Shown here in pieces: positions 3,251 through 63,859 of a stretch of DNA of 64,000 bases (the stretch's first letter is position 1; each line of letters opens with the position of its first letter). A model generated the notes under the pieces. It saw nothing but the letters and a program-made list of their open reading frames with translations, did not search any database and was not told the origin of the DNA. The stretch is from Polytrichum commune (lineage: Eukaryota; Streptophyta; Polytrichopsida; Polytrichales; Polytrichaceae), in contig OX485803.1 in the NCBI GenBank assembly GCA_950295325.1, positions 5,456,001 to 5,520,000 on the forward strand, written 5' to 3'. A program made the translations under genes and the position numbers.

Positions 3251-4769
3251 AAATAAAGAACTTGCTTGGGAGGATGTTTAAAACAAATAGAACATAGATG
3301 ATTATTTCCGTGGAGATGGATGTCCCATCTTCTCTTGGGATAATTTACATGATGATGGAACTAGAGTACTTGGATGGCTTGATGGATTCTACTTATTCTT
3401 TAGCTCACTCCAACACCCTTCTTCTCATGTTCTTCATTATAAAATGGCAAGTATCACTATATTCGTTAATTGGAGACTTTTTCATGATTTGGAGACTAAT
3501 CAAGGACTTCAAGTCCGATATCGTGTTTAGTGCATGTTTTGATTATGATATAGATACTTATTATATTTAGAAATATATATACTCCTCATGCATGAATATG
3601 TAGAAAGTTCATTATTAATGTTCCCCACGTTCACAATATTGCATCCCAAACTATGAGGTAAGTTTATTTTGAGACTTTCCAAAGTCTCCAATTAGCGAAT
3701 ATAATGATTGACTCCTTTTTCTCTAATCACCACCCGGTTTCCCTCCTTATAACCTCAATAATAGCCCTCATGGCGGATCATCTTGGAAGGCTAATGCTAG
3801 GTTTCTCCAAGAAGCCAACGATCCTCTTAAACCAATGTGGAAACGCTTCCTCTCCAAATGCCTCTTTACTAAACTTAGGAACACAGCTAGGTACTATAAT
3901 TTTTTGTAATGGTAAAGAAATTAAATATAGACTAGAAAAAAATAGACTTAAAAAGTCCCTTGCATTTTGGCAAGTCCAACTTCATTCAGATCCACATGAT
4001 GAAGTGAATAAAGCGTCCACTAAGGATTGTTGGGCTCAACTACAAGCTCTTGTAGATAGGAAAGAAGATGGACATAGGATTCGGTCTAGAACTAAATCGA
4101 TGGAATTTATGATAGGCTTAACAAGTATATTTCTCTTTAGTTAAAGAGCGTCCGGCACGTGGTCTCATTATTGAGTTGTATGATGAGGATAAGAGAGTGG
4201 TCTCCTCGAGAGTAGACCTTGCTAGAGTTTGCAATTAGTTCTAATCCAAACCTCACTCCACCTAGAGATGGATGGGTAACACGAGGATTGTTGCATGGAG
4301 CTACTAAGGTAGAAATACCATAACCCGTGAAAATAAGGTGATTCACATTGAAGATCTGGTCTGACAATCATGAGATAATTTTCCAGGATAGACGAGAAGG
4401 ATTCATGAAGAATGCAAGTTGTTTCATATTTTTCTGCCCTATACAAAAAAATGCTACAATTTTTCAAAGTGGAAAGTTGTCTAAACCCCTACTCGTTCAC
4501 TAGATACTCCCTACACCGAACACTGTAATCTGCATTTCCATACACAACATCGCTTAAATCGGTTACCTCATGAGTATATTAACACTTGACTCCCATTGGC
4601 TACACTAAGTGTGCACGCATTGAAGTTGCCGCCGAGCCATGACCAGTTTTAGAAATGGCACTTCACCATTATGACGACGGTCTAGAGCACGGCTAGAGGG
4701 TGGTTAACGGGTTATGGTATTTCTACCTTAATTTGAATCCCAGTTAAATTTTTAAAGCCTCTTAGAAGG

Positions 4770-6739: not shown

Positions 6740-8334
6740 TGTGAGCCCAAAATTTAGGCCACATATGTCCTTAAGCCTTTAGAAGTTATTAAGGTGTGGG
6801 CTTGAATTCTTTGTCGAGCTATTAACCATAAAAATAGTGTGAGCTTTGAAATTGGAATTGTGTTAAGTTATGGGTAGGATGTGGGTTTAGGGGTAGTAAG
6901 ACTAAGAGTGACACATAAAGCTAGGGGGTAGAAGGCTTAATTGTCGTTGACTTACACAAAAGCATAAAAAGAGTGAGGTAGGAGATGTGTTAGAATTATG
7001 CGGGAAGAAGAACATTAGTTCTTGTGGCAGTAGGAATACAAGCAAAGTAGGGGAATTGTTAGGATTTAATTAGGAAGGACTAGGAAGTTGGGACCAAGGT
7101 CTCGAAGGGTCATGGATCAATTAACCAGCGAAGGAGGGGGGCCTGTTCGAATTAGGCTGGACTCGCGGCACCCTAGGAAAATTCGGATCCCTGGCATCGG
7201 ACTGGGCGGTTGAGGCTCTGGGTGCCACAGTTGTGCTCTCACATCTCAGGAGAACAGGGGTAGCACCGAGGAGCGGGAGGCTGCCGAATTGAGAACAGGG
7301 GCAACACCGAGGAGCGGGAGGCTGCCGAATTGAGAACAGGGGCAACACTGAGGAGCGGGAGGCTACCGAATTGAGAACAGGATGGTTGTTACTGGGCACG
7401 GACAATCTAGCCGCGCAGGAGGACGGGATCTGGTTGTGGTTGAGGCAATGTAGCTCAATAAAGAGGATTCTGAGGGAGGCTCAGTGAAGGCCTTCGAAAA
7501 CTCCAGTGTGGATCTGAAAAATTCTGAGTCAAGCGTTCTGTTCAATCTTCCTGAGGGATTGGCATTCTCAACTGGAAGAAAAGAATGGTAAGGAAATCAC
7601 TCAGGCATAATGCTTGCACGGCATTAAGGATGGACTCGTGAGCATGAGCAGCCGAGAGCTGAACATGGAACTTGTAGGATGGCAGCTATGCAGGCTGGGC
7701 CTTTCTCTACCAGATTATCCCGAGGTGCAAGGCCACATTGTGGCGAGTGATTGGTTCGGAGGGAAAGGGAGCATGCTCATGGGAAGGAGGGGACTGAGGC
7801 AGTGGTGAAAATGGCAGTCTGGGCGCACATCAAACTACCCTAGGTGTCGAGAAGGGGATCAGCTGCCTCAGCTATGGGGCAGTTCAGTAGCGAGGTTGTG
7901 GCCTAAAGGTGTTGGTTAGTTGACCAAGGCACTTACCGAAGACTGGCGGTTAGAGGCAGCCTGGAGCTGGACATGGGACTTCCAGGGATCTGAATGCATT
8001 CTGGGGGATGATGGGGGACTAAAAGGGTTGGGCATAGTCATTATTCGGAGACGGGACTACTCAAGGCCGAGTTATTAGTGTAAGGGTACAAGGTTCTTTG
8101 GGTTTAGTGAGTAGTTAGGGCTTGGGTGAATGTGTTTTGAAAAGAGTGCAAGGAACAACAATATTTCTAAATACTTGGAGTTCCGTGTACATGAAATAAA
8201 GTTTGGAATGTTAGAACACATCCATTGTGGATGCATTGGGGCAATTATAAGAATGGTAGTATTAATCCTAGACATGTCAACCTGAAACTCCTACTCGGAC
8301 TATGACGCCTAAGGGTGGGAGTTTTGGGCTGACA
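6740..8334 (+). mobile_element. Solo LTR, family A, complete (1595 bp)
   Basis: It begins TGTGAGCCC and ends GGGCTGACA, against the family terminus GGGCTCACA seen in the reverse copies. The terminal ~55 bases match the copy ending at 891. The flanking pentamers are GGTGA and TATGA (3 of 5 identical), a poorly preserved target duplication. There is no internal retroelement domain and no second LTR. It lies inside the LINE, so it inserted after the LINE. Length is close to that of the reverse copy at 14374-15976 (1603 bp). Confidence 0.8.
7252..7374. repeat. 41-bp minisatellite, three copies, inside the LTR
   Basis: Three consecutive 41-bp units start with GAACAGGGG at 7252, 7293 and 7334; a fourth start is seen at 7375. 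Each unit contains GAGGAGCGGGAGGCT and CCGAATTGA. The units differ at only a few positions, so the expansion looks recent relative to the LTR. Confidence 0.9.
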
Positions 8335-12934: not shown

Positions 12935-12957
12935 TGAAAACTGCTTTTTGGTCCCAT

Positions 12958-13652
12958 GAGTGAATTCTTCATGCCATGCACGAACTAACACGAGTGTCAG
13001 AAGGGGCATTATATGAGGCTTTAGCTTACATAACATACATAAGGGAGGGATATTATTTTTCTCTACTTTGCACATCTAAAAGGGCTAATAATTTCTTTGA
13101 ATTGATGGTAGATGTGCACAAGGGGTCCCTAAGGTTTAGAGAAGAAATTGACTATAGATGTGTTAATTTCATCCAGTTTACATTTTCATTCGTTGTTGTC
13201 ATATGGTCTTTATCCTTAATGACTACCATGCATGTTCTTGTTAGGGTTTGCATTTGGGTTCTAGGCATTTAGAAACTAGAGACTCTTGGAGCGCTCACGA
13301 GCATCCTTGAGTTTTGCTATCCAAATTGTGGCTAAGTTATAATGGTCTTGTCTTTGTTTGTTTGATGAAATCATTGAGTTATATGTGACAGATGGAAGAA
13401 AACATTCGATGACATTCTCATTGGAAAGTGAAAGTGAAAATTATGTGTAATAAAGGCCTATTTAATTCATGTAGTGAAGGTATTTATCATATAAAATTGA
13501 AAAACTTCGTATAAATACATGAGCCCATTATCCAGCATGTCGTTAGTACGTATACATAAGTTTTTCTCTCTAAAAACCTCTTGTATATAGGAGGGGTTTA
13601 ATTTCATGATGATCCTCGCACGTCATTTAGGTTTCCAATAAAGGCTCCACCC
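12958..13652 (+). mobile_element. TIR element, family T, copy 1 (~695 bp, non-autonomous)
   Basis: This segment aligns along its length with 36087-36784 and, inverted, with 37261-37929. Shared blocks include CGAACTAACACGAGTG near the start, ATTATTTTTCTC, GGTCCCTAAGGTTTAGAGAA, TATAAATACATGAGCCCATT and CATTTAGGTTTCCAAT near the end. The ends here (GTGAATTCTTCAT and the reverse complement of ATAAAGGCTCCACCC) are more diverged than in the other copies. No transposase reading is present, so it is a non-autonomous TIR element. I could not find a clean target duplication, so the superfamily is open. Confidence 0.7.
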
Positions 13653-17056: not shown

Positions 17057-18986
17057 TGTGAGCCGAATTTTTGGCCAAATAGTTTAACTATGGGTGGATA
17101 ATAAGAGTTGGATGAAGTTCATCCGAATAGATGAAAACAATTGAATTATAGGCTAGGAAGGTAGTTACAACTTTTAGCATGGGCTTAGGCGCTCATAGTT
17201 GGTTATAAAATCTATTGTCTTCCCGGCCGAGCTAAGAGGGTTGGCGGGAGAGAGATAGGCAAATATTCATTGACTATTGTTCAGCGCATAGTTAAACCAT
17301 AGGCTTGTCTCCCTCGACACAGATTGTGCGAGGATAATAATTAAATTATTTTATTTGTATCTTGAGTAATCACCGTAGTGATCGTGGGGATATTGAAGTT
17401 TGTTAAGTACATTGTTATTTCGAATGATGTCTACTTTGAATGGTTGGAGTTCGGTTGAACCATTTGTTTGTTTGGATTGAATGAATACAAGATCGGAAAA
17501 CCATTGTCTATTGTTGTAACTGCTATTGACGAAGGCTGGAGTTGTGAGAGAAATCAAGTGAATTAGAATTGTGAGAGTGAGCGGTTGGGAAGTGATTGAA
17601 TGTAAAGAAAAACGGACATAAGATTGATCAACCTAAGAAATTGCCGCAAGAAATTGAACATTGTGTAACCATTTTCAAAGCGAGAACTCCTGGATATAGT
17701 TGAGAAAACTGGAAGGATGAACCAGAAGTGTGAAGATTCTAGATAGTATGAGAAAACGATTGTGTGAGTGAAATTTCTCTTTAGACCGAGAGATAGAAAT
17801 TGAAGGATAGGAATATGGAAGATGAGAGATTGAGTCGAACTATGGACAGAGAGACCATTTGAGTCAAGAGCTTGTGTAAAATCTTTGGTTGAAGAAGGTG
17901 ATGGAAAATGAAGGAATGTGAGGAAGTAGGTACCTCAGAGGGAAGTGAGTTGAACTATCAGCAAGAGTTGCCGAAGCGTCAGGCCGAGAAAGAAACTATT
18001 GTCTATTGTTGAGCCTGAGAGAGGCAGTGAGGACGGAGTAAATTGTTCAGCCGTATACATCAAGAGCTATATCATAAAAGAAACACTATAGTCTTATGAT
18101 AATAAAATCTGTCAACTCAGTTAAATTACGGGACCCTATCAACTAGATGTGATGAGAAAGTAATTATGATTAGTTGATTTGTGGGGGAGTTGAGAGAATA
18201 AGTTTGATTAAGTGAACTTAAGTTAGGATAAACTTTGGATTATCAATGAGATTTAGGCATAAGTTGTCCTAGACTCCATTATGAGTTTTATATTGATATA
18301 TAGTCTAGAGACGAGATCTTTGAGTATGAAAGTGCAAGCTAGCCATATCAATTATTGTCTTGTGTGTTACTATGGTTGTTGTTGTTGCAGGTTGTGCAGG
18401 GCAATCAAGACTATAGCTTAAACCTGATAATTGTTGTTAGTTGCATAAGTTGTGAATAATGATTAAATCTTGGAATTAAGGAATAAACAATTTGTCTTGC
18501 ATTGGAATTAACATTGACCAATTAATGAAGGAATTGTTTTGATTTGAAGATGCATTGGCCAATGATTACCAATGTCACGGTATGCAGCGTCGATGGCCGC
18601 ACCTTATCCGTTGGGTTTCATCCATCTAGATTTGGATGGATGAATCTTAGTTGTGAAGAGGAAGGCTCCTAAGTGAGGAGCCTCCTCCTTGGCTTGGCAT
18701 TCTTGCCAAGTCAAGTCGTGTGAGTGAGTGTGTGAAGAGAGCTTGTGTGAGGTGAAGATTGCATGTTTTTGCAATAAATATTGAGTTCTTCTCCCCCTAC
18801 TTACACTCTTGGATTCTCCCGTGGTGGAGTCAGAGATAGCTTGACTCATTATGTGCATTTGAAGAGAGATTTAGAGCTCTTATGAGTGTTTGACTCTCTT
18901 CCTTCTCATGTCGAGGTGTGTTGTTTATGTGTGACTTTGCTATGTTTTAGTATTGTTTGTTAGTGTCGATTGGTACTTGAGCTGCA
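17057..18986 (+). mobile_element. Solo LTR of a second family (1930 bp) with a perfect target duplication
   Basis: It starts TGTGAGCCGAATTTT and ends TTGAGCTGCA. Identical pentamers GTGAC flank it at 17052-17056 and 18987-18991. TG..CA ends with a 5-bp duplication are the signature of LTR retrotransposon integration. The start resembles family A (TGTGAGCC..), but the end and the interior differ. The interior is purine-rich (17700-18010) with a run of hairpins near its 3' end and an AATAAA at about 18773. No second LTR or internal domain is adjacent. Confidence 0.75.
18612..18735. repeat. Cluster of three short hairpins inside the LTR
   Basis: Three inverted repeats follow each other: CATCCA with TGGATG (about 18618-18640); AGGCTCCT, loop AAGTG, AGGAGCCT (about 18661-18682); and CTTGGC with GCCAAG (about 18687-18712). 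The second has a perfect 8-bp stem. The spacing is too regular to ignore, but each stem is short. Confidence 0.6.
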
Positions 18987-22906: not shown

Positions 22907-25151
22907 TGTTTGCCCTAAACCCCCACCTTTATGCGTCGTAGTCCAGGTGAGGGCTCAGAACTAACACGAGCCTAACTAACCCCCGGATGGCCTTCCCTCA
23001 TGTCCCTTCCAAATTAGTACCACATGCATTTCAAACCCACTGCTTTATTTCAATCAACCCAAGGAATAGTATTCAAGAATACTTTTGCTTAACAAGTAAC
23101 CATCCACTTAAATCCCTAATTTTTACTCTAGCCTATGTTCTTAAAGGACGGCTTAGGGCATCCCCCACCGTTCCCAACTATCTCCCTTCCTAATCTAAAT
23201 CCTAATCCCAATCTATTCCCAATCACCCAACCATTAATTCCAGCTGATCATGTGTGTTTTTGTTAAGACTGTCTCCCCTGATCAAAATGCTGGCCCTTAC
23301 TAGCCCCTGACTCTGCTGGACCGAGGTTACCAATGTTGTCCAGGTTGAATTCGGGTACCTCCTGGAGTCACCCCTAACCCGGCGCTACAAAAACGACTCT
23401 ATCCCCATACATCGATCGATCTACATTCCCCGACTCCATCCGGAGCCGCTTCCACCTTCTGAGTCCTCACTCCTCTTGCGACATTCAGGGCAGGCCCACA
23501 TTGTGTATCGTGAAGGTGAATCAACAAATTCAGCTCCCATTGTAGCCGTCTCCCCTGTTCTCTGCTCGTTCTTCAACCCTTCCGCTTCAGGCTACCCAAG
23601 ATTTGTTCCTCACCACCTACGTACATTGCAGTTCAGTATCATGTATATCACCGTTCACAAATGCAGTGATTCACCTGTGCTCTCACACTCCGGGGATTGC
23701 ACAGCCTTGCACCCGAACTCGCATTTCCTCCTTCACCGATTCACTAATCCCTTCTTCCACAGCCACCCAACCTGGCCATTCGCTTAAGTGCAGCCTTGCG
23801 ACTGCCGCATCACCCAGCTTGATCGACCAACATCCTACTTCAATCCGCTGCTCCCAGTTGAGCCGCTCCTGCGGCGGCTTCCTTCTCCTTCTCCTCCCCC
23901 GTTCCCTCACACACACACCGCTGGGCTCTCCTGGTTCCTGGACCCCCTGCCTCCCTAACTAGAATTCCGCGGCTTATCCTCGGATCAGAAACTACCTAGC
24001 CTTTTACAAACACTAACATATCTGTAACAAACCTCTCACCGGTTTATCACCAACTTCCACACTAACACGTATCAACCCAAAACAATCATAGACCAAGTAG
24101 GTCTTGGTTAAAGCTCAACCACCCGACCATAGGAGAGAGACAAAAGGTGCTCTCTCCTCCCCCGAGCTTCTTCTTATGCCGAAGCACTACTTTTACTTTC
24201 TATCTTTACATATAGTAAAAGTATCATATTCGTAGCTCTATCTTTTAGTCCTACTATGAATCTTCTATCTTTGGTTCTTCTAGAACCTTCTTCCATCTCT
24301 TATCTCAATCTCATTCTTCCAATTGGAATTGTCTAATTCCAATTGGATTCATCCATCCTTCTTTCTAGTTGGAACTCTCTAATTCCAACTAAATTCATCC
24401 ATTCATTCTTCTAGTTGGAATTGTCTAATTCCAACTAGATCCATCTATTCATTAAGAGTTGTCTAACTCCAATGAATAACATTCATCTTTCCAATTCTGG
24501 AGCGGTCCAACTCCAATGCACCTCATCGAAAGTTGTCTAACTCATGTGCACATGTTCTCAATATGGAATGGTCTAATTCCAATGCACTATATGCGGAGCT
24601 GTCTAACTCCAGTGCACATGTTGTCAATCTGGAGTTGTCTAACTCCAATCCATCCATCTTCAACTAGGAGTTGTCTAGCTCTCATCATCCTCCGCTTACA
24701 CACTGGCACATGTGGTTAGAATATTCAATTATCCATCAATATTGGTAGTTACCTTACAATGACACTACCGTCGATGACTAGGTGTCCATACACCCAACCT
24801 CGTCATCATGGTATACATTAAATGTCACATTGTCAATTAGCCTTGTCGTTGAGGACGCCTCGTCATCGTAGGATGGTAACTAGGTGTAGTTACATTACAA
24901 TATCCTAATCCGGTTAAGGAGATTTGGCTTGCGAGCTCAACATTAAAACCAATTTATCCTACCAACCAGTTTTTAAGGTATTACCCGTACTTACCAATCT
25001 AAAACTAGCACCCCAACTATAAGTCAACATAATTCCAAATTCCAAGTTCACACTCTTTTTATGTTTTTTGATAACTTGATAAAAATCCAACCCCACACCC
25101 TAATGATTTTTAAAGATTAAAAACATATGTGGCCTAAATATTGGGCTCACA
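22907..25151 (-). mobile_element. Solo LTR, family A, reverse, with a perfect 5-bp target duplication (2245 bp)
   Basis: On the plus strand it starts TGTTTGCCCTAAAC and ends TTGGGCTCACA. CTCAT is present on both sides (22902-22906 and 25152-25156), which fixes the boundaries. The left part (ACCTTTATGCGTCGTAGTCC) matches the left part of the reverse copy at 14374. It is about 640 bp longer than that copy, and the extra length falls in the hairpin-rich segment around 24128-24780. No internal retroelement domains occur. It abuts, and probably interrupts, the Harbinger pseudogene on its right. Confidence 0.9.
24128..24690. repeat. Array of about ten short hairpins with a GTCT loop, plus flanking hairpins
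   Basis: Between 24319 and 24682 a hairpin recurs with the core GGAATT-GTCT-AATTCC or GGAGTT-GTCT-AACTCC. Two units have perfect 12-bp stems with 4-base loops: 24319-24346 (CCAATTGGAATT) and 24411-24438 (CTAGTTGGAATT). Others are at 24366-24391, 24447-24477, 24499-24514, 24531-24542, 24565-24580, 24595-24610, 24631-24646 and about 24668-24682. Between units both sides of the stem change together (AATT/AATT against AGTT/AACT). Upstream are further stems: GGAGAGA/TCTCTCC (about 24131-24147), ACTTTTACT/AGTAAAAGT (about 24189-24221) and GGTTCT-TCT-AGAACC (about 24275-24289). Confidence 0.8.
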
Positions 25152-25156
25152 CTCAT

Positions 25157-26000
25157 AATACATTCAAGTTTATTTGTGAGAGTTTAGGTCATTATTTGAA
25201 GATAAATGTATGAGAGAGGCAATTTCAATCGAGAGTAAAGTTGCATTTTTATTAAACAATCTTGAAATTGGAAAGACATGGTTTACCACATGATAGGTAT
25301 ATGGGGTTGCCAAAAGTATAATTTCTAAAATTATGAGAAATTCATGTAGATTGGTAAAAGTTCATTTGCAACACACTTTTGTACAATTTCCAAGTCTAGC
25401 TTGATTTAGGATTTTAGCACAAGAATTTGAAGCACTTCATGAATTCCTCATATTATTAGAGCAATTGATGAATCTTACATTCCAATTCTTGCACCTATAA
25501 TTTGAGGATAAAATTATTATTGTTGAAAGTCATTTCACTTGGATATACTACAAGATAATATTGACACAAAATAAGTATTTTGAGATTTCAAATTCAGATG
25601 GACAAGTACCATGCACGACCTGATATTAATTCAACTAACAAATGTTGAAAAATTTTATAAAAATGGTAAACTCTTACCGTATAGGTTGATAAGAGATTGT
25701 GCATATCTAGTGTGGCCATGGATTTACAGCCCATTTAGAGGTTCTGTAGAAGATTTAGAAGATTATAAAGGTATTTGGAATTTTTTTCAAAATTATACTT
25801 GGATGTACATAAAACGTGCTAAACGGAAGGTGGAGAATTATTATGAGAAAGGTTGATGTACCTTTATGACATATGACTAATATTATTGCTACATGTAATG
25901 TGCTATATAATATTTATACAATTAGCAAGGACAAGTTTGATAAAGAATGGACAGAATAAGCAAAAAGACAATTGCAAAACAAATTAGAGAATCTGTTAGT
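25157..26000 (+). pseudogene. PIF/Harbinger transposase (HARBI1-like nuclease) pseudogene
   Basis: Plus-strand blocks, in changing frames, are: TFKFICESLGHYLK (about 25160-25201); DKCMREAISIESKVAFLL (about 25203); VRVHLQHTFVQFPSLA, degraded (about 25360-25405); FEALHEFPHIIRAIDESYIP (about 25428-25487); LLPYRLIRDCAYLVWPWIYS (about 25670); SPFRGSVEDLEDYKGIWNFF; and a tail with NVLYNIYTISKDKFDKEW (to about 25950). This is the layout of plant HARBI1-like nucleases. The first two acidic catalytic positions survive (D in AID at 25467-25469; D in IRDCAY). The third, usually E in a VERAFG-like block, reads I-K-R-A with K at 25812-25814. Stops and frameshifts occur throughout. The protein would have cut and joined Harbinger element ends. 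Its 5' part is missing or lies beyond the adjacent LTR. Confidence 0.75.
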
Positions 26001-29472: not shown

Positions 29473-30268
29473 GTGTCGTGACGGACCCCTCCGTCACGAC
29501 ACAATAGGGTCCACGTAGGGTCAACCTAGGGGGAAGCTAGTAGGGTGGGTAAAATACTTACCTTCTTGCCAAGGTGGCGTCCTATGTGGCAGAAAAGGCC
29601 GACGTGGACGTGGATATGCCTAGCGCTAGGTAAACCATTTTGCCATTATGTTTATCATTCTGTTAAAATCAAAGTAGTAAAATATGACTAAGGAGGGTGT
29701 GGGGCGGACGGGTCGGGAACAATTCCCCCCCCCCCCCCTCCGGACGGGGGTTGGGAATGGGGGCGGGAACGGGAACGGGGCGGACGGGGGAGGGATTTTT
29801 TATTTTTATTTTTATTTTTTTTGCGGGCGGGGGTTGGGAACGGGGGCGGACGGGGGGGGGGGGGGGGGGGGGAACGGAGCGGACGGGGGTGGATGGGGTC
29901 GGGAACATGGTTTTTTTTTTTTTTTTTTTTTTTGGTTTGCGGACGGGGGTTGGGAACGGGGGCGGACGGCGGGGAGCGGAGCGGACGGGGTCGGGAACGG
30001 GGGCGGACGGGGGGGGGGGAACGGGGCGGATGGGGGGGGGGCGGACGGGTGCTAGTAATTTTTTCCCCACTTTACCTCTACTTTGCTGACATGTCATCAC
30101 ACGTGGACATCTTACATCCTACGTGTCCGAAATGGGGTAATGTAATTACACACAGAATTCGGTAAAATTCAAGTCCGTCAGGATAAAGACAACATCCGGC
30201 ATAATGTCGTGACGGATACGTGTCGTGACGGCAGGACATTATGTCGAGATTAGCCTCCGTCACGACAC
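29473..30268. mobile_element. Palindrome-bounded element with a G-rich core (~796 bp)
   Basis: At the left, GTGTCGTGACGG (29473-29484) pairs with CCGTCACGACAC (29491-29502): a perfect 12-bp stem with a 6-base loop. At the right, the same two 12-mers recur at 30220-30231 and 30257-30268 with a 25-base loop, and a further partial copy (TGTCGTGACGGAT) lies at about 30205. Both outer palindromes are followed by AATAG, giving a 20-bp direct repeat. Between them lies a G-rich minisatellite. The architecture suggests a foldback-type or other palindrome-ended mobile element. No family is recognised. Confidence 0.55.
29697..30053. repeat. G-rich minisatellite with long homopolymers
   Basis: Irregular repeats of GCGGACGGGGGTTGGGAACG and GGGGGCGGACGGGG, interrupted by C14 (29725-29738), G21 (29852-29872) and T-runs (about 29808-29820 and 29911-29933). 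The strand asymmetry (G on plus) and many GGG runs give dense G-quadruplex potential. The long glycine/proline open frames here are artefacts of composition. Confidence 0.9.
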
Positions 30269-35499: not shown

Positions 35500-36086
35500 T
35501 TAGAGTTGTGTAGGTATGATGCTTGACTTGATAGTGTGTCTTTGAGGGTTGGTTTTAGTGCACGGCTTTGTGGAGTGACTTTGTGGTGTAGTTAAGTTCT
35601 TGAGGAGAGGTGGGTTTGTGGTATATTGTGTGGATACATTTAGGGAGAATAATAAAAATCCAAGGAAATAGCTTGCACTCCTTATTATAGATAGTGTAGA
35701 GTATACAATATACAAAACAAAGGGGCAATTGAAAGCTTGTTATAAGGTTTCTATCCCTTAAATGTGTTGTATCCTTGGTGGTGCATTGATGAGTTACTGT
35801 TGAAGCCCAATAGTGGCTGGAATGGGCTCCGAGAGGAGCGGTCATCAATGAGGTGTTGTAACCTTGAGGGACGGGTGGATCAAGCCTTTGGATGAGTTCT
35901 AGAGCGCCAATGGACAAGCCACTGACTATACCTTGCATGCAAAGGTTTGATTGTTGAATTTATTGTGCTAATGTGCTAAAGAGTCCTTGGAGGTTGGCAG
36001 CGTGGTAGGTGATGGTTGTTGTGGTCACTTTGAGTCTCTGGTTCATATGGTTGTTAATGTTGGTAGTGAGCATGCCCTTGAAGGAT

Positions 36087-36784
36087 GGACTCTTCATACT
36101 ACATGCGAACTAACGTGAGTGTAAGAAGGAATATTGTTTGAGGCATTAGCGTACATAATGTACATAAGGGAGAGGTATTATTTTTCTCGAGTGTGTTCAT
36201 CCAAAAAGGCTATTTTAAAATTTGAAGTAAAGGTAGATGTACAAAAGGGGTCTCTAAGGTTTAGAGAAAAAACTTGGCAATAGATGTGTCGGTTTCATCT
36301 AATTCATGTTTTCATTCACTATTGTCATATGGTAATAGTCCTCAATGAATGCCTTGTTCATTCTTGTTAAAGTTTGCATTTTGGGTTCTAGGTGTTTATA
36401 AACTGGAGGCTTTTGGAATGCTCATGAGCTCCCTTCAATTTTTCTCTTCATATTGTGGCTACGTTTGAGCTTTTGTCTTTGTTTCTCTAATGCAATCGTT
36501 GGGTTACATGCCATTGATGAAAAATTGTTCAATGATTTTCTATTTGGAAAGTGAAGGTGGATTTCATATGTAATAAAAGCAAATTTTTGTTCATGATTCA
36601 TATCTTGTATATGTAATGGTGGCATTTATCACATTAACTTGAAAAGATTAGTATAAATACATGAGTCCATTTTCTATCCTACAATTAATACGTAGACATT
36701 GTTTTCCTCCATAAACTTCTCGTATAGAGGGGTTTAAATTTATAGCAACCCACACATGTCATTTAGGTTTCCAATGAAGAGTCC
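36087..36784 (+). mobile_element. TIR element, family T, copy 2 (698 bp)
   Basis: The ends are perfect 11-bp inverted repeats: GGACTCTTCAT at the left, ATGAAGAGTCC at the right, extending to TGGACT..AGTCCA. The interior aligns with 12958-13652 in the same orientation. Flanks (CCTTGAAGGA and ACCCATGGGA) show no duplication, so the superfamily is undetermined. It interrupts the reverse-strand coding remnant. Confidence 0.8.
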
Positions 36785-37260
36785 AACCCATGGGAGGTTA
36801 CGAATATCTTGTCCAACTTTTCTTCAAGCTCCTTGATGGTTTGGACAAGGTGTTTCGTTGTGATGAGTAGGTTGGTGTCGGTAGCTTTGCTTATGGCTTG
36901 TACTTTGTTTGCGAGAGCTTCTCTTTTGGGTGCACGAGGAAGGTGGATTGCCCCCTTGTTGGGGTGCTTGGTGTGGGATGAAGTCTATGTTGTGGTAAAG
37001 TAAGTAAGATTTGTAAAGCCACTATGTGTAGACTGTAGCATTAACATATTGTATGTGGCACCACCCCAAATGCTTATTGGTGTTTTGATGTCAAGTGTTG
37101 CCAAATTCACTCCAACAATGTTGTCCATGCCGAAGGCTTGCTTGATGACCCGTGTGATGGAAGATTGTGTTTCTCTGAAAGAGGTAGTCGGCGAAAAACG
37201 TCATGCGAATTTGGATCTCAGCTGGATTGCCAGTGTCAGAGTCTCAAGTGCCCGAAGGGT

Positions 37261-37929
37261 GGACTTTTCATTGGAAACTAAGATGACATTCGTGGGTCAT
37301 TATGGAAACAAACCCCCTATATACAAGTTTATAGAGAAAAACAAGTGTATACATAGTAACAGCACACTGGAAAATGGGCTCATGTATTTATACTAAGTTT
37401 TTCAATTTAGTGTGATAAATGCCTCCATTATATATACTAAATCTATATCATGATTTAAGTAAGTTTTCTATCACACATGACCTTCACTTTCACTTTCCTC
37501 TAAAAAACATTTATTCATCCATAGCATGAAACTCAACAAATGGATCAAACAAATACTAAAGCAGAAGACTTAGCCACAAACCCGGAGAGCATAACTCAAG
37601 GAAGCCCATGACCGCTTCCAAAGCCTCTAGTTTGTAAAAATCTATAACCCAAATGCAAACCCTAACGAGAACATACATGGTAGTGGTTAAGGACTTTGAC
37701 CATATGACAACAATGGATGAAAACGTGAATTGGATGAAGCTATTGTTAAATTGTTTTCTCTATATCTTAGGGCCCCCTATTGAACATCTACCTTTATTTC
37801 AAAAAGATTAATAACCTTTTAGATGTACACACTAGAGAAAAATAACACATCTCCCTTATGTATATCATGTATGTTATGCCTCAAAAATAAGATCTCTTCA
37901 CATTAGTTCGTACGTGGTATGAATAGTCC
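37261..37929 (-). mobile_element. TIR element, family T, copy 3, inverted (669 bp)
   Basis: Ends GGACTTTTCAT and ATGAATAGTCC, extending outward to GGGTGGACT / AGTCCACCC. The reverse complement aligns with copies 1 and 2. Together with copy 2 it forms a large inverted repeat around 36785-37260, but each copy has its own terminal repeats, so these are two insertions and not the arms of one element. Confidence 0.75.
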
Positions 37930-39720
37930 ACCCACCGAGCTCAAGTGATGCTAACCCGAAGCTTCTTGTGGTGGTATGCTAGTCTTTCCTTGAGAACAAC
38001 ATCACTAGCTTCCTCTGTGGTAAGGGTAAAGAATATGAAGTCTTTGTCCACCTCCAACTTGGTGAGGCCCATGAATTTGTGTTGCCTCCCATTGTAGTAG
38101 TTGTCACGTACTAATGCGTTGAAGATGTTGAATGCATACTCATGGCGAAGTGTCTCTCCCTTGATATCTAGACAAAGCTCATAATTCATTTCAATCTTAC
38201 CAATTATCCATTCACTATCCTCCATTTCCATGACGAATGCACAATCACCTCGGAGAGTGCAAATCCATTGCATTGTGGGTTTTGTAGGTATATCTTGATG
38301 AACCCGCCCAATTTTCCGTCATCGAGTTCAAGCCGATATTGAGTGGATTTGAATATATTGTGCCGATGTCCATTTGTCAGAGTCGCTTCAAGCATGTTCC
38401 TTGTGTTTCATGTTTACTGGTAATTTTGAATCCAGATTCAAAGTGAACAATAATATGGAACCTTCAAAGAGTATAATTAATTGATATGCTTTCTCTGACC
38501 ATGGGAGTTGAGTGAAGTGGAGATGGTTGTTGGGTACCACATCCGGCCTCTCATTCATGTAATGTTTTTGCATCACATGTAGGTAAACTTTCTAGAGCGT
38601 TTTAAATGCAATGATCTATCTTGAAAGGGTCCCAAGTTTTTCCAGTTCTTCATTCCTCTAGTTGTCTCTTACCATGTCTTTGCTTCTTTGTGTTGATATG
38701 GCTTCATGGATTGGGAAGCCTGGCCACATTTGTGAGACTATGTCAATGTTTGGAATTGCCCCCTTGTTTCACGTGTCTTGTTGCTTGTTTGTGTTGGAGG
38801 TTGCCATCTTTCCATCCACTTTGTTCTTCTCCTTTTGGCGCTATGGGTGTTGGTCATGTTCTCATTCTTTGAGCTCTTGTACGGGATTGTGGGAGAATTG
38901 CTCCCCGCCAAGATAATAGTGTCTAGTCTTGAGGTTGTTGTGGTGGCGGCTTGAGTGTGATTGGCGATGACAACATCAGTTGATGTTGAGAGTTGGAGGG
39001 AACTCCCCCCATGCTTGGGAGAGATGTTCTCAAATTGCATGTCAAGATCTTCAGCATGGTGAAGGAGGTGGGCTTCTCCATGATATTGTCCGCTCAACTC
39101 ATAGTCACAACCCCTTCCCGCATGTTGTTGTCCTTGTTGCGTTCCTCAAACACCTTGGTGTCTTCGGCTAATGCTCTTTCTATCTTGCTTGTGACTGTGG
39201 GAGGAGTATACCTTGGTGGAGGACATGGTAGAGGGGTAGTTGAGTTTGGTGTTGGAGATGTCGGGATTTGGTGTAGTGTTGCAGATAATTACGTTTGATG
39301 TGGTTGTTATGAAAACCTTTGAGGTGTGTGGTTGTGTTGCATGTGGGCTTCCGGTTGATTTGAGGGTGAGTCATCTCCACTAAGCTTGTTAATTGACACT
39401 TTTATACCTAAGTCATTGGAATGCTTTGTCCAAGTTGTGTCAAGGATCATCCCGTCTTTGTGTAAGTTGGTTGTGTTTGACCAACTGTCGATTGGCATCT
39501 ACTCCGACACAATACATGAGCGCCCTTGTTGTTGTGGCTGCGAGTAATCGTTGTAGCAGACCCTCTACAATAATACAATACACAAGTAATCTTACATCCA
39601 CACTACTAAAATGTAAATTGCATGACAACATACAACAAAATGAATTTTTTTGAACATCTTTCAAACCCGAGAGAGAATTGCTACACATAAACATACCTCT
39701 CATCCATCCATGTTAAACAC

Positions 39721-53954: not shown

Positions 53955-54950
53955 CTATTGATCTTGGAATTTTACTTGTTTTTTTAAAGGAAAATGAAGT
54001 AAATTTATTTTGTGGAGATCAAAATTACTGCTTCCTTCTGCAACAACATCTAAATGTGGTCTAAAATTGTTCTCTACAACTTCCTTGTGTGCCAACACCC
54101 AAAACAATTCTATATTCATATACGACAATGCATCTTTGATTCAAGCCCAAACCCCATGCTTTTAGGATATATATATATATATATATATAAGGTTCTTTCA
54201 TTTGCATCACAAAACAACTCAAGAAAACAAAACAAAGTTTGGACTTATCTTAGGGTGCGTGTGTGACCGGATCCCTTATTTCATGGAAACTTTTTTTTCC
54301 CACTGCTTTTGGTCCGAAGGTTGAGGAGATGACCATTGAGTTAGTAGGATTATATGTGGATAGGTGCAAAAGGTCTTACATTGTGCCGTATGCTTTACAT
54401 CATCAACCTCTCTTCCACCTCACATGGCACATTGCCTTAAATAGACGTACCTTATTGGCAAGTCATTACAATCGGTCAACTAACTCTCCCATTGACATTG
54501 CAATCATATGTGGATGCAAACATATTGCATCCATTGTAAGCATTCACACGTGGAAAATCTAAAGTTATACATTACTTAATTTTCCCACAACCATTCTAGA
54601 TGAATCTAGAAAGCATGCATTCAAACGCTTTGCTATGGCTTTGATTGGGCTCTAGTTATGATGTATGACCAACCTTCTAACCGGTCAATGCGTTTGAGAT
54701 GTCTAAGTAAATGCATTCATTAAGAAGGTGAATACTCAATGAACTACACACTTGATGTATGAAATCCAAATTATTATAGTAGAGTCTAATTGTTGGTTCT
54801 CAAACTATAACATCATGTCCACACTAGGACCGTTGATTGACCCACTAACAATGGGAGAATATCCATATTGGTAGGAGTATCTTGTCTTGTATGCACTGGC
54901 AGAACTTCAATTTGTTACGTCCAGTGAGGTTATTGTGAGTAGGACAAAAT
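53955..54950. other. No gene recognised
   Basis: Holds an (AT)n tract and a 99-codon forward open frame at 54263-54562 that begins with ATG but has no motif I recognise. Confidence 0.4.
54167..54189. repeat. (AT)n microsatellite
   Basis: Eleven AT dinucleotides. Confidence 0.95.
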
Positions 54951-57447
54951 AATCCTTAGAGGAAACAATAATATCGGAAAGAGATGCACTTTCCCCTATT
55001 GAAAGGGACTCCCACTGCCCAGGATCAACAATTGGCCCTAGTGCGGGCACGGTATAAGAGACTTGTTTTTCCTAGCACCTTTCATCCACGATGGACGAGT
55101 GTACATGAACACCATGAATCCCAAGCCCCTTCCAGCCACACAACTAGGTGACAAAAAGATGCTCGCCAAAGTGCTCGGCACTTAAAACGTGTTAGTTCCC
55201 TCTATTTATTGCCATGCATCCATTGGCATGGCAATGCAGGTTAATCCTCAGTGAAAACAATAATTTCGGAAAGAGATGCACTTTCCCCTATCGAGAGGGA
55301 CTCCCACTACTCAGGACCAATGGTTGGCCCTGGTGCGGGCACGGTATAAGAGACTTGTGTTTATTAGCACCCTTCATCCACGATGGACGAGTGCATATGA
55401 ACACCATGACCCCAAGCCCCTTCCAACCACACAACTAGGTGACAAAAAGATGCTGGCCCAAGTGCTCGGCACTAAGAACGTGTTAGTTCCCTCGATTTGT
55501 TGCCATGGACCCATTGGCATGGCAATGCAGGGTTAATCCCTAGTGGAAACAATAATTTTGGAAAGAGGTGCACTTTCCCCTATCGTGAGGGACGCCCATT
55601 GCCCAAGACCAACGATTGGCCCTAGTGTGGGCACAATATAAGAAACTTGTTTTTACTAGCACCCTTCATCCACGATGGATGAGTGTGTCCATGAACACCA
55701 TGAACCCCATGAACAGTGGTGATTTTTCACAAGGTCCCTAACATGTCCAGGGACATGTTCATAAAAAAAAAAAAACATTTCCAGTGGACGGGTTCTTAAA
55801 AAATGAACCGGTTTTTGGACGTGTCAAATTCACTTTGGATGGGTTCTAAAAATAACAATTTTTTTGATAAATTTTTCCAAAAAATATAAATGATACAAAT
55901 ATCAGTTACATTATGTCATATATGACATGTGAATATAAGCATAATGCAATCAAACCACTAATACCCAATCAAAATATCAATCTTGAAGTCCTTGATTCAC
56001 CTGCATACATTAGTTCATCAACCACAAAATTTAGAATGGGGTGTTTCCTGGAAAGATGAGAATCAACAACAAAAGACAGATAATTGACGAACATTGAAGG
56101 CATAATTTGTCAAAATCTTGTGGTTTCCAAGTGCAACCAGTCACATGTCGCCATCCGTTTTTTTTTTATAGATTTTATAGATTTTTTTTTACCAACATTG
56201 TAAGAGACTTATTCATACCTCTTGCGGGACGGGTCTTTTCATTTTCAAACCAGTTTTGGGACGGGTTGTTTTTTCTTTAACCTTTCCATGGACGGGTTGG
56301 TTTAGAAATTACCGGTTTAGGGACGGGTTGTAATTTTTTTTGCCTTGCAATTCAAGGTTTTTGGACATGGACGGGCCCAAACTTTGTGAAAAATCAGCCC
56401 TGCCCATGAACCCCAAGCCCCTTCCAGCCACACAACTAAGTGACAAAAAGATGGTGGCCACAGTGCTCGGCACTAGGAACGTGTGAGTTCCCTCTCTTTG
56501 TTGCCATGCACCCATCGGCATAGTAATGCAGGGTTAATCCCTAGTGGAAACAGTAATTTCGGAAAGAGCTGCACTTTCCCCTATCATGAGGGACTCCTAG
56601 TGCCCAAGACCAACGATTGGCCCTAGTGTGGGCACAATATAAGAGACTTGTTTTTACTAGCACCCTTCATCCATGATGGATGAGTGTGTCCATGAACCCC
56701 ATGAACCCCATGAACCCCAAGCCCCTTCCAACCACACAACTAAGTGACAGAAAGATGGTGGCCAAAGTGCTCGGCACTAGGAACGTGTGAGTTCCCTCTC
56801 TTTGTTGCCATGCACCCATCGGCATGGCAATGCAGGGTTAATCCCTAGTGGAAACAGTAATTTCGGAAAGAGGTGCACTTTCCCCTATCGTGAGGGACTC
56901 CCACTGCCCAAGACCAACGATTGGCCCTAGTGTGGGCACAATATAAGAGACTTGTTTTTACTAGCACCCTTCATCCACAATGGATGAGTGTGTCTATGAA
57001 CCCCATGAACCCCATGAACCCCATGAAGCCCAAGCCCCTTCCAGCCACACAACTAAGTGACAAAAAGATGGTGGCCAAAGTGCTCGGCACTAGGAACGTG
57101 TGAGTTCCCTCTCTTTGTTGCCATGCACCCATCGGCATGGCAATGCAGGGTTAATCCCTAGTGGAACAGTAATTTCGGAAAGAGGTGCACTTTCCCCTAT
57201 CGTGAGGGACTCCCACTACCCAAGACCAACGATTGGCCCTAGTGTGGGCACTGTATAAGAGACTTGTTTTTACTAGCACCCTTCATCCACAATGGATGAG
57301 TGTGTCCATGAACCCCATGAAGCCCAAGCCCCTTCCAGCCACACAACTAAGTGACAAAATGATGGTGGCCAAAGTGCTCGGCACTAGGAACGTGTGAGTT
57401 CCCTCTCTTTGTTGCCATGCACCCATTGGTATGGCTAGGCAATGCAG
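54951..57447 (+). repeat. Six-unit tandem array of a ~292-313 bp coding-like segment
   Basis: Units begin at the word AATCC at 54951, 55243, 55535, 56536, 56840 and 57153; the long third interval contains a 689-bp hAT insertion. In unit 2 the frame 55276-55536 is open for 86 codons (HFPLSRGTPTTQDQWLALVR, ARYKRLVFISTLHPRWTSAY, TQLGDKKMLAQVLGTKNVLV, CCHGPIGMAMQ), and the other units give the same peptide with frameshifts. A 9-bp subrepeat, CCCATGAAC, varies from one to four copies between units and breaks the frame. I do not recognise the protein. Amplification of an exon or of an element's coding segment is the likeliest origin. Units 4-6 are closer to each other than to units 1-2, so growth was on the right side. 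Confidence 0.8.
55714..56402. mobile_element. Non-autonomous hAT element (689 bp) inserted in array unit 3
   Basis: The left end CAGTGGTGATTTTTCACAA and right end TTGTGAAAAATCAGCCCTG are inverted repeats with three mismatches; CAG..CTG termini are typical of hAT. An exact 8-bp target duplication, CCCATGAA, lies at 55706-55713 and 56403-56410. The subterminal word GGACGGGTT recurs on the right (about 56226, 56261, 56290 and 56322) and TGGACGGGTTC on the left (about 55785), as expected for transposase-binding repeats. No transposase is encoded. The target is the 9-bp CCCATGAAC subrepeat of the array. Confidence 0.92.
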
Positions 57448-57672
57448 GTTGACTAGCAATCATTCTCTTTGGCAATGGTGTGTGTTTCGGCATTGGACAA
57501 CAGCCTAAAAGAGTCGAATAATTTGCAGGCCGCCTTCATGAATGTCACTGGACTACTTACAGGAGAGGCATCTACTACAAGCAGGCAAACGGGCAGCAGG
57601 GATGGAGGAACCACATACTATTTTGTCATGCATGTGCTGGGTGGTTATTCAGTCAAAGTTGTGTCACACTAG
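57448..57672 (+). pseudogene. Coding-like segment following the array, product unknown
   Basis: Directly after the last unit the frame reads VD, a stop, QSFSLAMVCVSALDNSLKES, NNLQAAFMNVTGLLTGEAST and, at the end, TTYYFVMHVLGGYSVKVVSH. The unit peptide ends ..IGMAMQ just before it, so the two may once have been one exon. A small insertion (GCTAG near 57434) and the stop at 57454 break that link. The text looks like real protein, but I cannot name a family. Confidence 0.35.
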
Positions 57673-62385: not shown

Positions 62386-62475
62386 TGGTCACCTTGTCAA
62401 TGGGGATCAACTTATTGCGTAAAGATTGGTGGATGAGGAGTTGTTCAATGCGCACAGACTGTGTGCTGATGTGAG
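62386..62475 (+). other. Upstream open reading frame in the GARP leader
   Basis: ATG at 62386 opens a 29-codon frame ending with TGA at 62473-62475, in a different frame from the main protein and 28 bases before its first ATG. If the exon starts at 62335, this is the first ATG of that exon and would reduce initiation at the main start. This is inferred from position only. Confidence 0.4.
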
Positions 62476-62503
62476 TCCCTGCAAATCTCGGGCCAGGTTA
62501 TTG

Positions 62504-63859
62504 ATGGAACACAGGGACTCGAGGACAATAACGAATACCGCACCTGTGCAAGGATTCGGGATGCAGGGTGAAGGGGATCACAGTAGTGGCAGCGATGGGG
62601 GGACACGTGGGAAGTGGGGGGAGTATTCATCGCGAAAGAGGAACTCATCGTCTAGTGAAGAGTATACTCCAGAACGTTCTTCAGAAAGTCATAACACGGC
62701 CACAGGCGGGGGGAGTCCCGGAAGCGGCAATGGTTCTCAAGGAGGTCCCAGTGGAGGAGGAGGAGGTGGTGGTAGGGCTGGAGGAACCGTGCGGCAATAT
62801 GTGCGTTCGAAAATGCCTCGGTTGCGTTGGACTCCTGACCTGCACCACTGCTTTGTGGTTGCAGTTGACCGGCTCGGTGGCCAAGACAGTGAGCTCCTAC
62901 GCTTCTGAGTCAGACCTTTTCTCAAAGTCGTCGTGGCAAACGAGCTCATTCGCAGCAGTCCTGCAGCTTTTTTGAACGCCCCTTTGACATGAGCGGACTG
63001 AAGCTTCCTTGGTCTTACACTTCTAATTTGATAAATCCTGCTCTGACAGTACCTTTAAAGCAGTCAGGTGGCAACATGGATCCAGCCTACTCGTGTCTGA
63101 AACTGTGGTCAGATAGTTAACTATGAATTTCCTGTCAGAGGCGTCCTTTGGCTTGTCAATCGACAAGGCAAGGTATGACGATCATATGAGCCTCGCCAAA
63201 ATCTGAGGATATGAAACATCGTAGTCCTGTGAAGATGATCAACGCTAGAAGACTCTTACTCTCGCTCACCAAACTGACGGGGATATATGTTGCATGATGG
63301 TTCTGGAGGTCCTCAACGTCACATATCTATGACAAAAGCGGCCTAATACAAACTTCTTAGTGTTACGTGTCACAGTCGATGTAAAGATTGTCCGGTAAAA
63401 AAATTGGCCTAATAAGAACTTAGAGTTACGTGTCTCAATCGATGTCAAGATCGTCAAGTGATTCTTTCTTGAAAGGATACGCATCACACCTCACTTGTAG
63501 GGCAGAAGGTTGGCGGTTGAGAATGTGTGTAACGTCTAGCGATAGGGAATGTGCCGATTAATGTTTCGGAGAAGGTTGTCTACTTCGAAAGATAGATCTG
63601 GTTGGCCGTTTCTTATCTCCAAGTTCTGCAATAACTATCCTGGTCTATTTGAATACGTCGCATGTGTCCGTGCAAACATCATTTCAGTGGCATGTAGGAT
63701 GATGATGGAAAATGATTGGTCTATGATGTCAGGTATGACAATGTTGTGAGCAGCTGACTGAGAGGGCAATCACTGAGTGCAGGAGCAACTCCGAAAATGG
63801 TTCTTCAGCTGATGGATGTCAAGGGCCTCACGATTGCTCATGTCAAAAGCCATCTGCAG
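62504..63859 (+). CDS. G2-like/GARP family transcription factor, 5' part (exons 62504-62888 and 63783-63859)
   Basis: Nuclear DNA-binding protein of the plant G2-like (GARP) class with a single MYB-like domain. Numbered from the ATG at 62504, residues 1-95 are disordered (S/G/E-rich, with a GGGGGGG run), followed by VRQYVRSKMPRLRWTPDLHH (about 96-115) and CFVVAVDRLGGQD (to 128). Exon 1 ends in phase 1 at 62888 (A|GTGAGC). The acceptor at 63781-63782 restores R129, and the 77-nt second exon encodes ATPKMVLQLMDVKGLTIAHV, then KSHLQ, before GTAGGA at 63860. PRLRWTPDLH, ATPK and GLTIAHVKSHLQ are the family signature and carry the recognition helix. The MYR-type continuation and C-terminus lie outside the window. 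The upstream frame is open to 62426 but has no ATG, and an in-frame stop lies at 62420, so 62504 is the preferred start unless an earlier exon splices in. Confidence in the family is very high, in the start moderate. Confidence 0.93.
62889..63782 (+). other. Intron within the GARP domain (894 bp)
   Basis: Begins GTGAGC and ends TGCAG, in phase 1. If it is retained, the protein continues SELLRF and stops at 62908, losing the second half of the DNA-binding domain. The junction lies between LGGQD and ATPK. The intron contains two related ~45-base blocks (about 63330-63400 and 63405-63465, sharing TTAGTGTTACGTGTC-like text and CCTAATA.AACTT), a small internal duplication. Confidence 0.85.

Follow-up and report, generated by a model that had tools for sequence, protein, structure and literature searches.

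The U3 of the plant elements Tnt1 and Tto1 carries repeated, dyad-symmetric activator boxes, and in 2016 Bousios et al. reportedly linked clusters of structured palindromes, located in the LTRs of maize Sireviruses, to small RNAs. The junction of a Sirevirus element comprises CA/ATTGG and the primer site TATCAGAGC, with multiple polypurine tracts and gag-pol. The closest described system is formed by the repeated motifs in the LTRs of the Sireviruses OPIE-2, PREM-2, Osr8 and Tnd-1 (Bousios et al. 2010, PMC2829016). According to the portion of that paper used here, the motif is palindromic; a 3' LTR holds 3-14 copies of it and a whole element no fewer than 8. Most arrays begin 200-400 bp from the LTR start, span 300-500 bp and lie upstream of the TATA box. 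A CGG-CCG core is present in 12 of the 13 published motifs, Tnd-1 being without it, and box I of Tnt1 is mentioned in the same portion (PMC2829016). In maize, the palindrome clusters of Sirevirus LTRs have strong predicted structure and are small-RNA hotspots, and cis-regulatory regions of transposons are often repeat arrays, sometimes palindromic (excerpts of PMC10760457 and PMC5311732). The human retroviral LTR ERV9/LTR12 has tandem-repeat enhancers in its U3 (excerpt of PMC11853044).

We compare with these systems an array in a 64-kb window, that is, the whole stretch of DNA analysed. A palindromic 16-nt core with the consensus GGARTTGTCTAAYTCC recurs ten times at 24325-24682. The cores start at 24325, 24371, 24417, 24455, 24499, 24529, 24565, 24595, 24631 and 24667, with start-to-start distances of 46, 46, 38, 44, 30, 36, 30, 36 and 36 bp. 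Ten hairpins with a near-constant loop had been noticed earlier from the sequence, and this description holds: all ten units match GGARTTGTCTAAYTCC with at most three mismatches, as does one further site in the 64 kb, and the loop is GTCT in eight of them (CTCT in unit 2, GTCC in unit 5). Units 1-3 lie within tandem repeats of 46 bp. A 66-bp duplication with 73% identity accounts for units 5-6 and 7-8. The carrier and the units are as follows.

22907-25151, minus strand (likely transcribed): solo LTR L1, 2245 bp, with TG..CA ends and homology to L2 and L3
22902-22906: target-site duplication CTCAT on one side of L1
25152-25156: target-site duplication CTCAT on the other side of L1
24318-24347: unit 1, stem of 13 bp without mismatch, GTCT loop
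24364-24393: unit 2, with a CTCT loop and, counting G-U, 13 minus-strand pairs
24410-24439: unit 3, perfect 13-bp stem, two paired arm changes relative to unit 1
24446-24478: unit 4, distinct outer arm TATTCATT/AATGAATA, bulged
24499-24682: units 5-10, cores 30-36 bp apart, stems partly decayed

Units 1 and 3 are the two perfect-stem units with different outer sequence that the earlier note had picked out, each with 13 bp. CCAAT boxes also occur in the array (24319-24649): the plus strand has seven and the minus strand two, and several of them immediately follow a right arm.

On balance, we lean towards reading this locus as a tandem array of palindromic boxes in the U3 of a plant LTR retrotransposon, left as a solo LTR and similar to the Sirevirus motifs. 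As far as the excerpt of PMC2829016 describes the Sirevirus arrays, the likeness lies in ten palindromic copies, few central bases, a position in the upstream half of the LTR and diverged flanks; the L1 array starts at LTR position 470, slightly later than the 200-400 bp given there. The supposition that no plant LTR feature of this form had been described is wrong, as the published Sirevirus arrays show.

There are also differences from the Sireviruses, as these are described in the excerpts used. The L1 consensus GGARTTGTCTAAYTCC has no CGG-CCG core, and the motif cluster is not a CpG island (3 CpG per 364 bp in the array; CpG observed/expected 0.25-0.33 at LTR positions 401-800). The LTR ends are TGTGAGCCC..GGGCTNACA, and there is a conserved AATAAA. 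By eye, the C-rich integrase signal was not seen about 21 bp from the 3' end of the L1 LTR, where the minus strand is rich in G and the plus strand is not rich in C. The Sirevirus 5' end TGTTRRN..TAA (PMC3601003, in the part consulted) was not found, L1 reading TGTGAGCCCAATATTT instead. With the core, CpG island, integrase signal and LTR ends all different, membership of L1 in the Sireviruses is, as judged from sequence features, unsupported. Conserved AATAAA is described for retroviruses and the Metaviridae of animals, but not for the Pseudoviridae of plants, and plant Metaviridae were not modelled in the part of PMC3601003 used; the conservation of AATAAA here hints, by analogy, at a Gypsy-type element.

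The other systems are further away. With the maize Sirevirus clusters, as excerpted, the locus shares palindrome clusters predicted as hairpins in LTR regulatory regions, but the maize clusters are backed by small RNAs, whereas the present array is known from the sequence of one solo LTR. With ERV9/LTR12 it shares a putative U3 tandem array of units of about 40 bp and recurring CCAAT motifs; ERV9/LTR12 is human retroviral, and palindromic hairpins are absent from its description in the excerpt of PMC11853044. The array also resembles Tnt1 and Tto1, plant elements whose LTRs have short repeated activator sites that can be palindromic, but these are fewer in number and of unrelated sequence.

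That an LTR element carries the array, as had been proposed, is borne out by the duplication CTCAT around L1 and by ends common to related LTRs. In a self-comparison of the window, a 60-bp block occurs in four places and a 150-bp block in two, corresponding to the two ends of an LTR group that includes L2 (14374-15976), L3 (8334-6740, minus strand) and L4, which is cut by the window start. Both ends of L1 align to L2 and L3 with matching boundaries, L4 aligns at its in-window end, and the LTR ends align at 61-82%. The inverted TG..CA ends are TGTTTGCCC..GGGCTCACA in L1 (7/9) and TGTGAGCCC..GGGCTCACA in L2, and the flanking duplications are ACTAG/CCTAG for L2 (4/5) and TCATA/TCACC for L3 (3/5). 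We rejected LTR edges taken from a scan for inverted ends and duplications alone, because chance pairs score similarly; the edges of L1 are accordingly based on its homology to L2 and L3. We take L1-L3 as solo LTRs because, by eye, neither a primer site nor an internal region lies next to them. At E 0.01 the middle of L1 has no alignment to its relatives, whereas one weak stretch in the middle is common to L2 and L3. L1 is about 640 bp longer than either. L3 has an unrelated 41-bp tandem array of its own in mid-LTR (7250-7381, 3.2 copies).

The orientation of L1 follows from features near one end of the LTR:

23044-23049, minus strand: AATAAA, 143 nt from the LTR end
23068-23083, minus strand: short 6-bp hairpin directly upstream of AATAAA
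22907-22966, minus strand: terminal 60-nt LTR hairpin of L1, with a conserved 16-nt loop
14374-14433, minus strand: its counterpart in L2
8275-8334, plus strand: its counterpart in L3
832-891, plus strand: its counterpart in L4

In all four LTRs, 140-143 nt separate AATAAA from the LTR end, with a second AATAAA further in within L3. On the evidence of the scan, AATAAA occurs on this strand and it is absent from the opposite strand of L1-L3, the LTRs covered by the scan. The hairpin upstream of it is present in all four LTRs, with 23 of 24 cells paired and one pair changed on both sides. The terminal hairpin has about 20-24 pairs, and 14 of its 16 loop positions are invariant in the four LTRs. 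The terminal 60 nt reach z of -5.0, -5.7, -5.9 and -5.4 on the AATAAA strand, compared with -0.7, -2.3, -5.3 and -2.7 on the opposite strand. The position of AATAAA and the strand bias of the terminal hairpin together suggest that L1 was transcribed on the minus strand. The array would therefore occupy LTR positions 470-833 of 2245, most likely within U3. We infer this orientation, as neither a primer site nor an internal region was seen. A TATA-like site, CTATATGTA, with one mismatch, is found at LTR position 938, 105 nt past the array, as one of five one-mismatch TATA-like sites on that strand of L1.

If the array does belong to U3, its dyad-symmetric sites, upstream of the promoter, could bind host transcription factors and so drive the element; this promoter and factor-binding role is putative. 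The array motif is not known to correspond to a named hormone-response or other factor site, and we rejected that reading. The copy number would have risen by tandem duplication of the 46-bp and 66-bp blocks visible in the repeat pattern, and the arms may have been matched, or re-matched, mainly by template switching during DNA or reverse-transcriptase synthesis. In template switching, one arm is copied onto the other, which gives perfect stems in one step and several paired changes together, though its role in maintaining short stems is less clear according to the authors, in the part of their paper used here (PMC8794818). The occurrence of perfect beside decayed stems, the new outer arm of unit 4 and neighbouring hairpins of unrelated sequence all fit such a process. 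A transcript across the array is predicted to fold into hairpins, and, by analogy with the excerpted accounts of maize Sireviruses, such hairpin transcripts might accompany small-RNA hotspots. Against a regulatory role in U3, the array is missing from L2 and L3 and is thus not conserved across the wider LTR group: the motif has no match in L2 and a single four-mismatch match in L3. The earlier note had named the lack of the array in other copies as evidence against its proposal. L2 and L3 do lack it, which counts in part against the proposal, although their divergence from L1 is too great for members of one subfamily. If the array is a cis-regulatory cluster outside the Sireviruses, this architecture would have arisen in more than one group of plant retrotransposons, and the AT-rich motif would separate palindromy from the CpG-island explanation.

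Alternatively, the array could be a neutral palindromic minisatellite, in which a chance palindrome was amplified by slippage and held in partial symmetry by template switching, with no function. We consider this possible but unlikely. Of the three LTRs of the group that are full-length, one has the array, several of the array's units have decayed, and the unrelated tandem array of L3 indicates that the middles of these LTRs gain tandem repeats. However, the 16-nt core and loop have been kept while the flanks have diverged and the spacing varies (30 to 46 bp), and both position and copy number resemble the Sirevirus arrays, as the excerpt of PMC2829016 gives them.

Another alternative, which we regard as distinctly unlikely, is that the hairpins are selected in the sense (minus-strand) RNA, where they would bind Gag or an RNA-binding protein or would steer reverse transcription. 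This is close to the proposal of the earlier note, which had pointed to stems that differ in pairs between units (GGAATT/AATTCC and GGAGTT/AACTCC). The difference concerns one position, core pair 3, which forms a standard pair in all ten units (4 A-T, 6 G-C) and whose column covaries perfectly, but it is the sole core pair of six with changes on both sides. The wider statement, that both sides of the stems are kept matched beyond neutral decay, is right in that there is an excess over independent decay; it goes too far in that 8 of the 60 core cells are non-standard on the plus strand, spread over six of the ten units (52/60 paired). Even on the minus strand with wobble, where 55/60 core cells are paired, five are broken in four of the units.

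We find the paired changes to be real but modest. Permuting the right arms among units gives P 0.019 for the core and 0.009 for the outer arm. Under a tree-simulated null with independent columns, for which the unit tree is rough, being built from 40 columns, paired-cell, covariation and double-change measures exceed expectation across 13 pairs (P 0.0035-0.022), and the six core pairs give P 0.005-0.12, the excess of paired cells in the core being weak (P 0.10-0.12). With 13 pairs, the paired percentage and the covariation score are each reached by 0/500 shuffles, the count of double-changed pairs by 18/500 and the pair types by 335/500; for the core the corresponding figures are 11/500, 5/500, 479/500 and 500/500. 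Double-changed core pairs are in fact below the shuffle mean (1 against 1.4). When the partners of the 13 pairs are slid by one column, covariation is almost equal (0.173 vs 0.179), which also speaks against selection of the RNA, and the paired percentage goes from 63 to 41. Single changes in the core lean towards wobble on the minus strand (5 vs 2), not significantly. The excess of arm matching is carried by units 1-4. The arms of units 1 and 3 are identical except for two paired changes, and units 2 and 3 differ by two one-sided changes, both G-U on the minus strand. Thus, units 1-3 keep 39/39 minus-strand pairs despite six arm changes (about 0.004 under a random-placement model, for a trio picked after inspection of the data).

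The segment folds better than shuffled controls, a comparison that the earlier note had proposed. The 380-nt array region reaches z -8.1 (plus strand) and -8.9 (minus strand). Among 426 non-overlapping 150-nt windows (30 shuffles each, DNA parameters), the lowest z, -12.5, belongs to the one at 24301. With perfect stems counted at 8 bp or more and loops of 3-20 nt, the 600-nt window at 24101 has eight, the maximum of the 64 kb, where the mean is 0.46. As minus-strand RNA, units 1-4 fold strongly (z -4.7 to -7.2) and units 8 and 9 weakly (-2.4), whereas units 5, 6, 7 and 10 show no clear gain over shuffles (-0.4, +1.2, -1.4 and -0.7). Only some of the ten hairpins form in minimum-energy folds of the whole region, in which units 2 and 3 pair with each other. 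Further hairpins lie beside the array:

24084-24109: predicted hairpin, AGACC/GGTCT with an outer extension, from the fold alone, without a shuffle control of its own
24131-24158: hairpin with a 9-bp stem of unrelated sequence, z -2.5 on the minus strand
24188-24223: hairpin with a 10-bp stem and a 16-nt loop containing a TATA-like site, z -3.5 on the minus strand
24273-24287: hairpin GGTTCT-TCT-AGAACC, z -2.1 on the minus strand

Since the last three have stems of unrelated sequence, the hairpin-rich zone is wider than the array. In 120-nt windows of the presumed sense strand, which cut through the terminal LTR hairpin, L1 reaches z -2.1 to -5.3 at positions 481-1020 and has none below -1.5 elsewhere. 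L2 has one window at -3.4, L3 has none below -1.8 and the available part of L4 none below -1.7. In the 150-nt scan, the second lowest z (-8.1) belongs to the window with three successive hairpins of unrelated sequence at 18617-18715, with arms of 10, 15 and 12 nt. They lie about 60 nt upstream of AATAAATATTG and are perhaps the regulatory region of another element.

Template switching can, by analogy, yield the same pattern as selection of the fold. Of the suggestion that the fold is selected, some arm matching remains (P 0.0035-0.12), but it can be explained alike by template switching, and four units fold about as well as shuffles. A role in packaging or dimerisation is unsupported: the array is probably in U3, and AGAC and GTCT are not self-complementary, so that we rejected kissing-loop dimerisation through the loop. 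If many copies were to covary, the array would become a rare case in which upkeep of a palindrome at the DNA level can be separated from selection at the RNA level in a retrotransposon.

The terminal hairpin, which also has paired changes and to that extent lends some weight to RNA selection in this LTR family, looks better supported than the array as a selected RNA structure, as far as folding models indicate. RNAalifold predicts 28 pairs in two helices, the terminal hairpin and the one adjacent to AATAAA, with 106/112 cells paired. Five pairs (seven cells) have changes on both sides, counts reached by 17/500 and 0/500 shuffles, while further pair types show no excess (115/500). On the AATAAA strand, there are 18 G-U and 2 A-C cells, a comparison biased towards this strand, on which the structure was predicted, and drawn from four sequences, which are few. 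A broader version of RNA selection can be built on this, with two sense-strand modules, a U3 hairpin array (near-constant tetraloop AGAC) and a terminal U5 hairpin (conserved 16-nt loop), both selected as RNA. They would serve, for example, as repeated sites to which Gag of the element or a protein of the host binds. We judge this combination to be quite improbable; the limited literature covered gave no description of such modules in a plant LTR.

It is very improbable indeed that another mobile element, or a foldback, has inserted into the LTR. In favour of this, the hairpin-rich zone (24084-24690) is similar in size to the roughly 640 bp extra in L1. Against it, a search that reached arms up to 60 nt apart showed no inverted repeat pair framing the zone, and the middle of L1, without alignment to its relatives, offers no comparable insertion edge.

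Rfam gave 0 matches at gathering thresholds, which means no described RNA family at threshold, such as the hammerhead found in retrozymes, and a tRNA search gave none. A blastn search of plasmids with the array found nothing at E 0.1. The motif of the LTR end had 0 matches in viral contigs, and the single-unit motif had ten loci there, none of them (0/10) with a second GTCTAAYT on the same strand within 300 bp. The two-unit pattern had 29 viral loci, none with both unit arms by eye; we take these as chance or coding repeats, several being plain short repeats (e.g. L035 and L036). A two-unit pattern had seven loci in prokaryote genomes. In a text search of the literature with four 12-mers, taken from the array and the end of the LTR, the matches listed look unrelated by title.

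Elsewhere in the window, Pfam searches of six ORFs gave two weak hits that miss the cut-off: Myb-like, E 0.034, at 62423-62905, and FYRC, E 0.054, at 3662-4141. The assignment to a plant is accordingly based on the overall appearance of the DNA and on the Myb-like gene rather than on a match in a database. Beside the LTR, 25584-26000 resembles by eye what we take to be a decayed PIF/Harbinger-type transposase; a 90-aa piece of it (25584-25853) had no Pfam match. A repeat of about 700 bp is present in three copies with 71-74% identity (12957-13652, 36083-36788 and 37257-37933), the latter two mutually inverted and about 470 bp apart. G-rich tandem arrays at 29690-30050 have GGACGGGGG-type units with T-runs, and at 54950-57450 there are two blocks of 292-304 bp tandem repeats that are about 85-96% alike.
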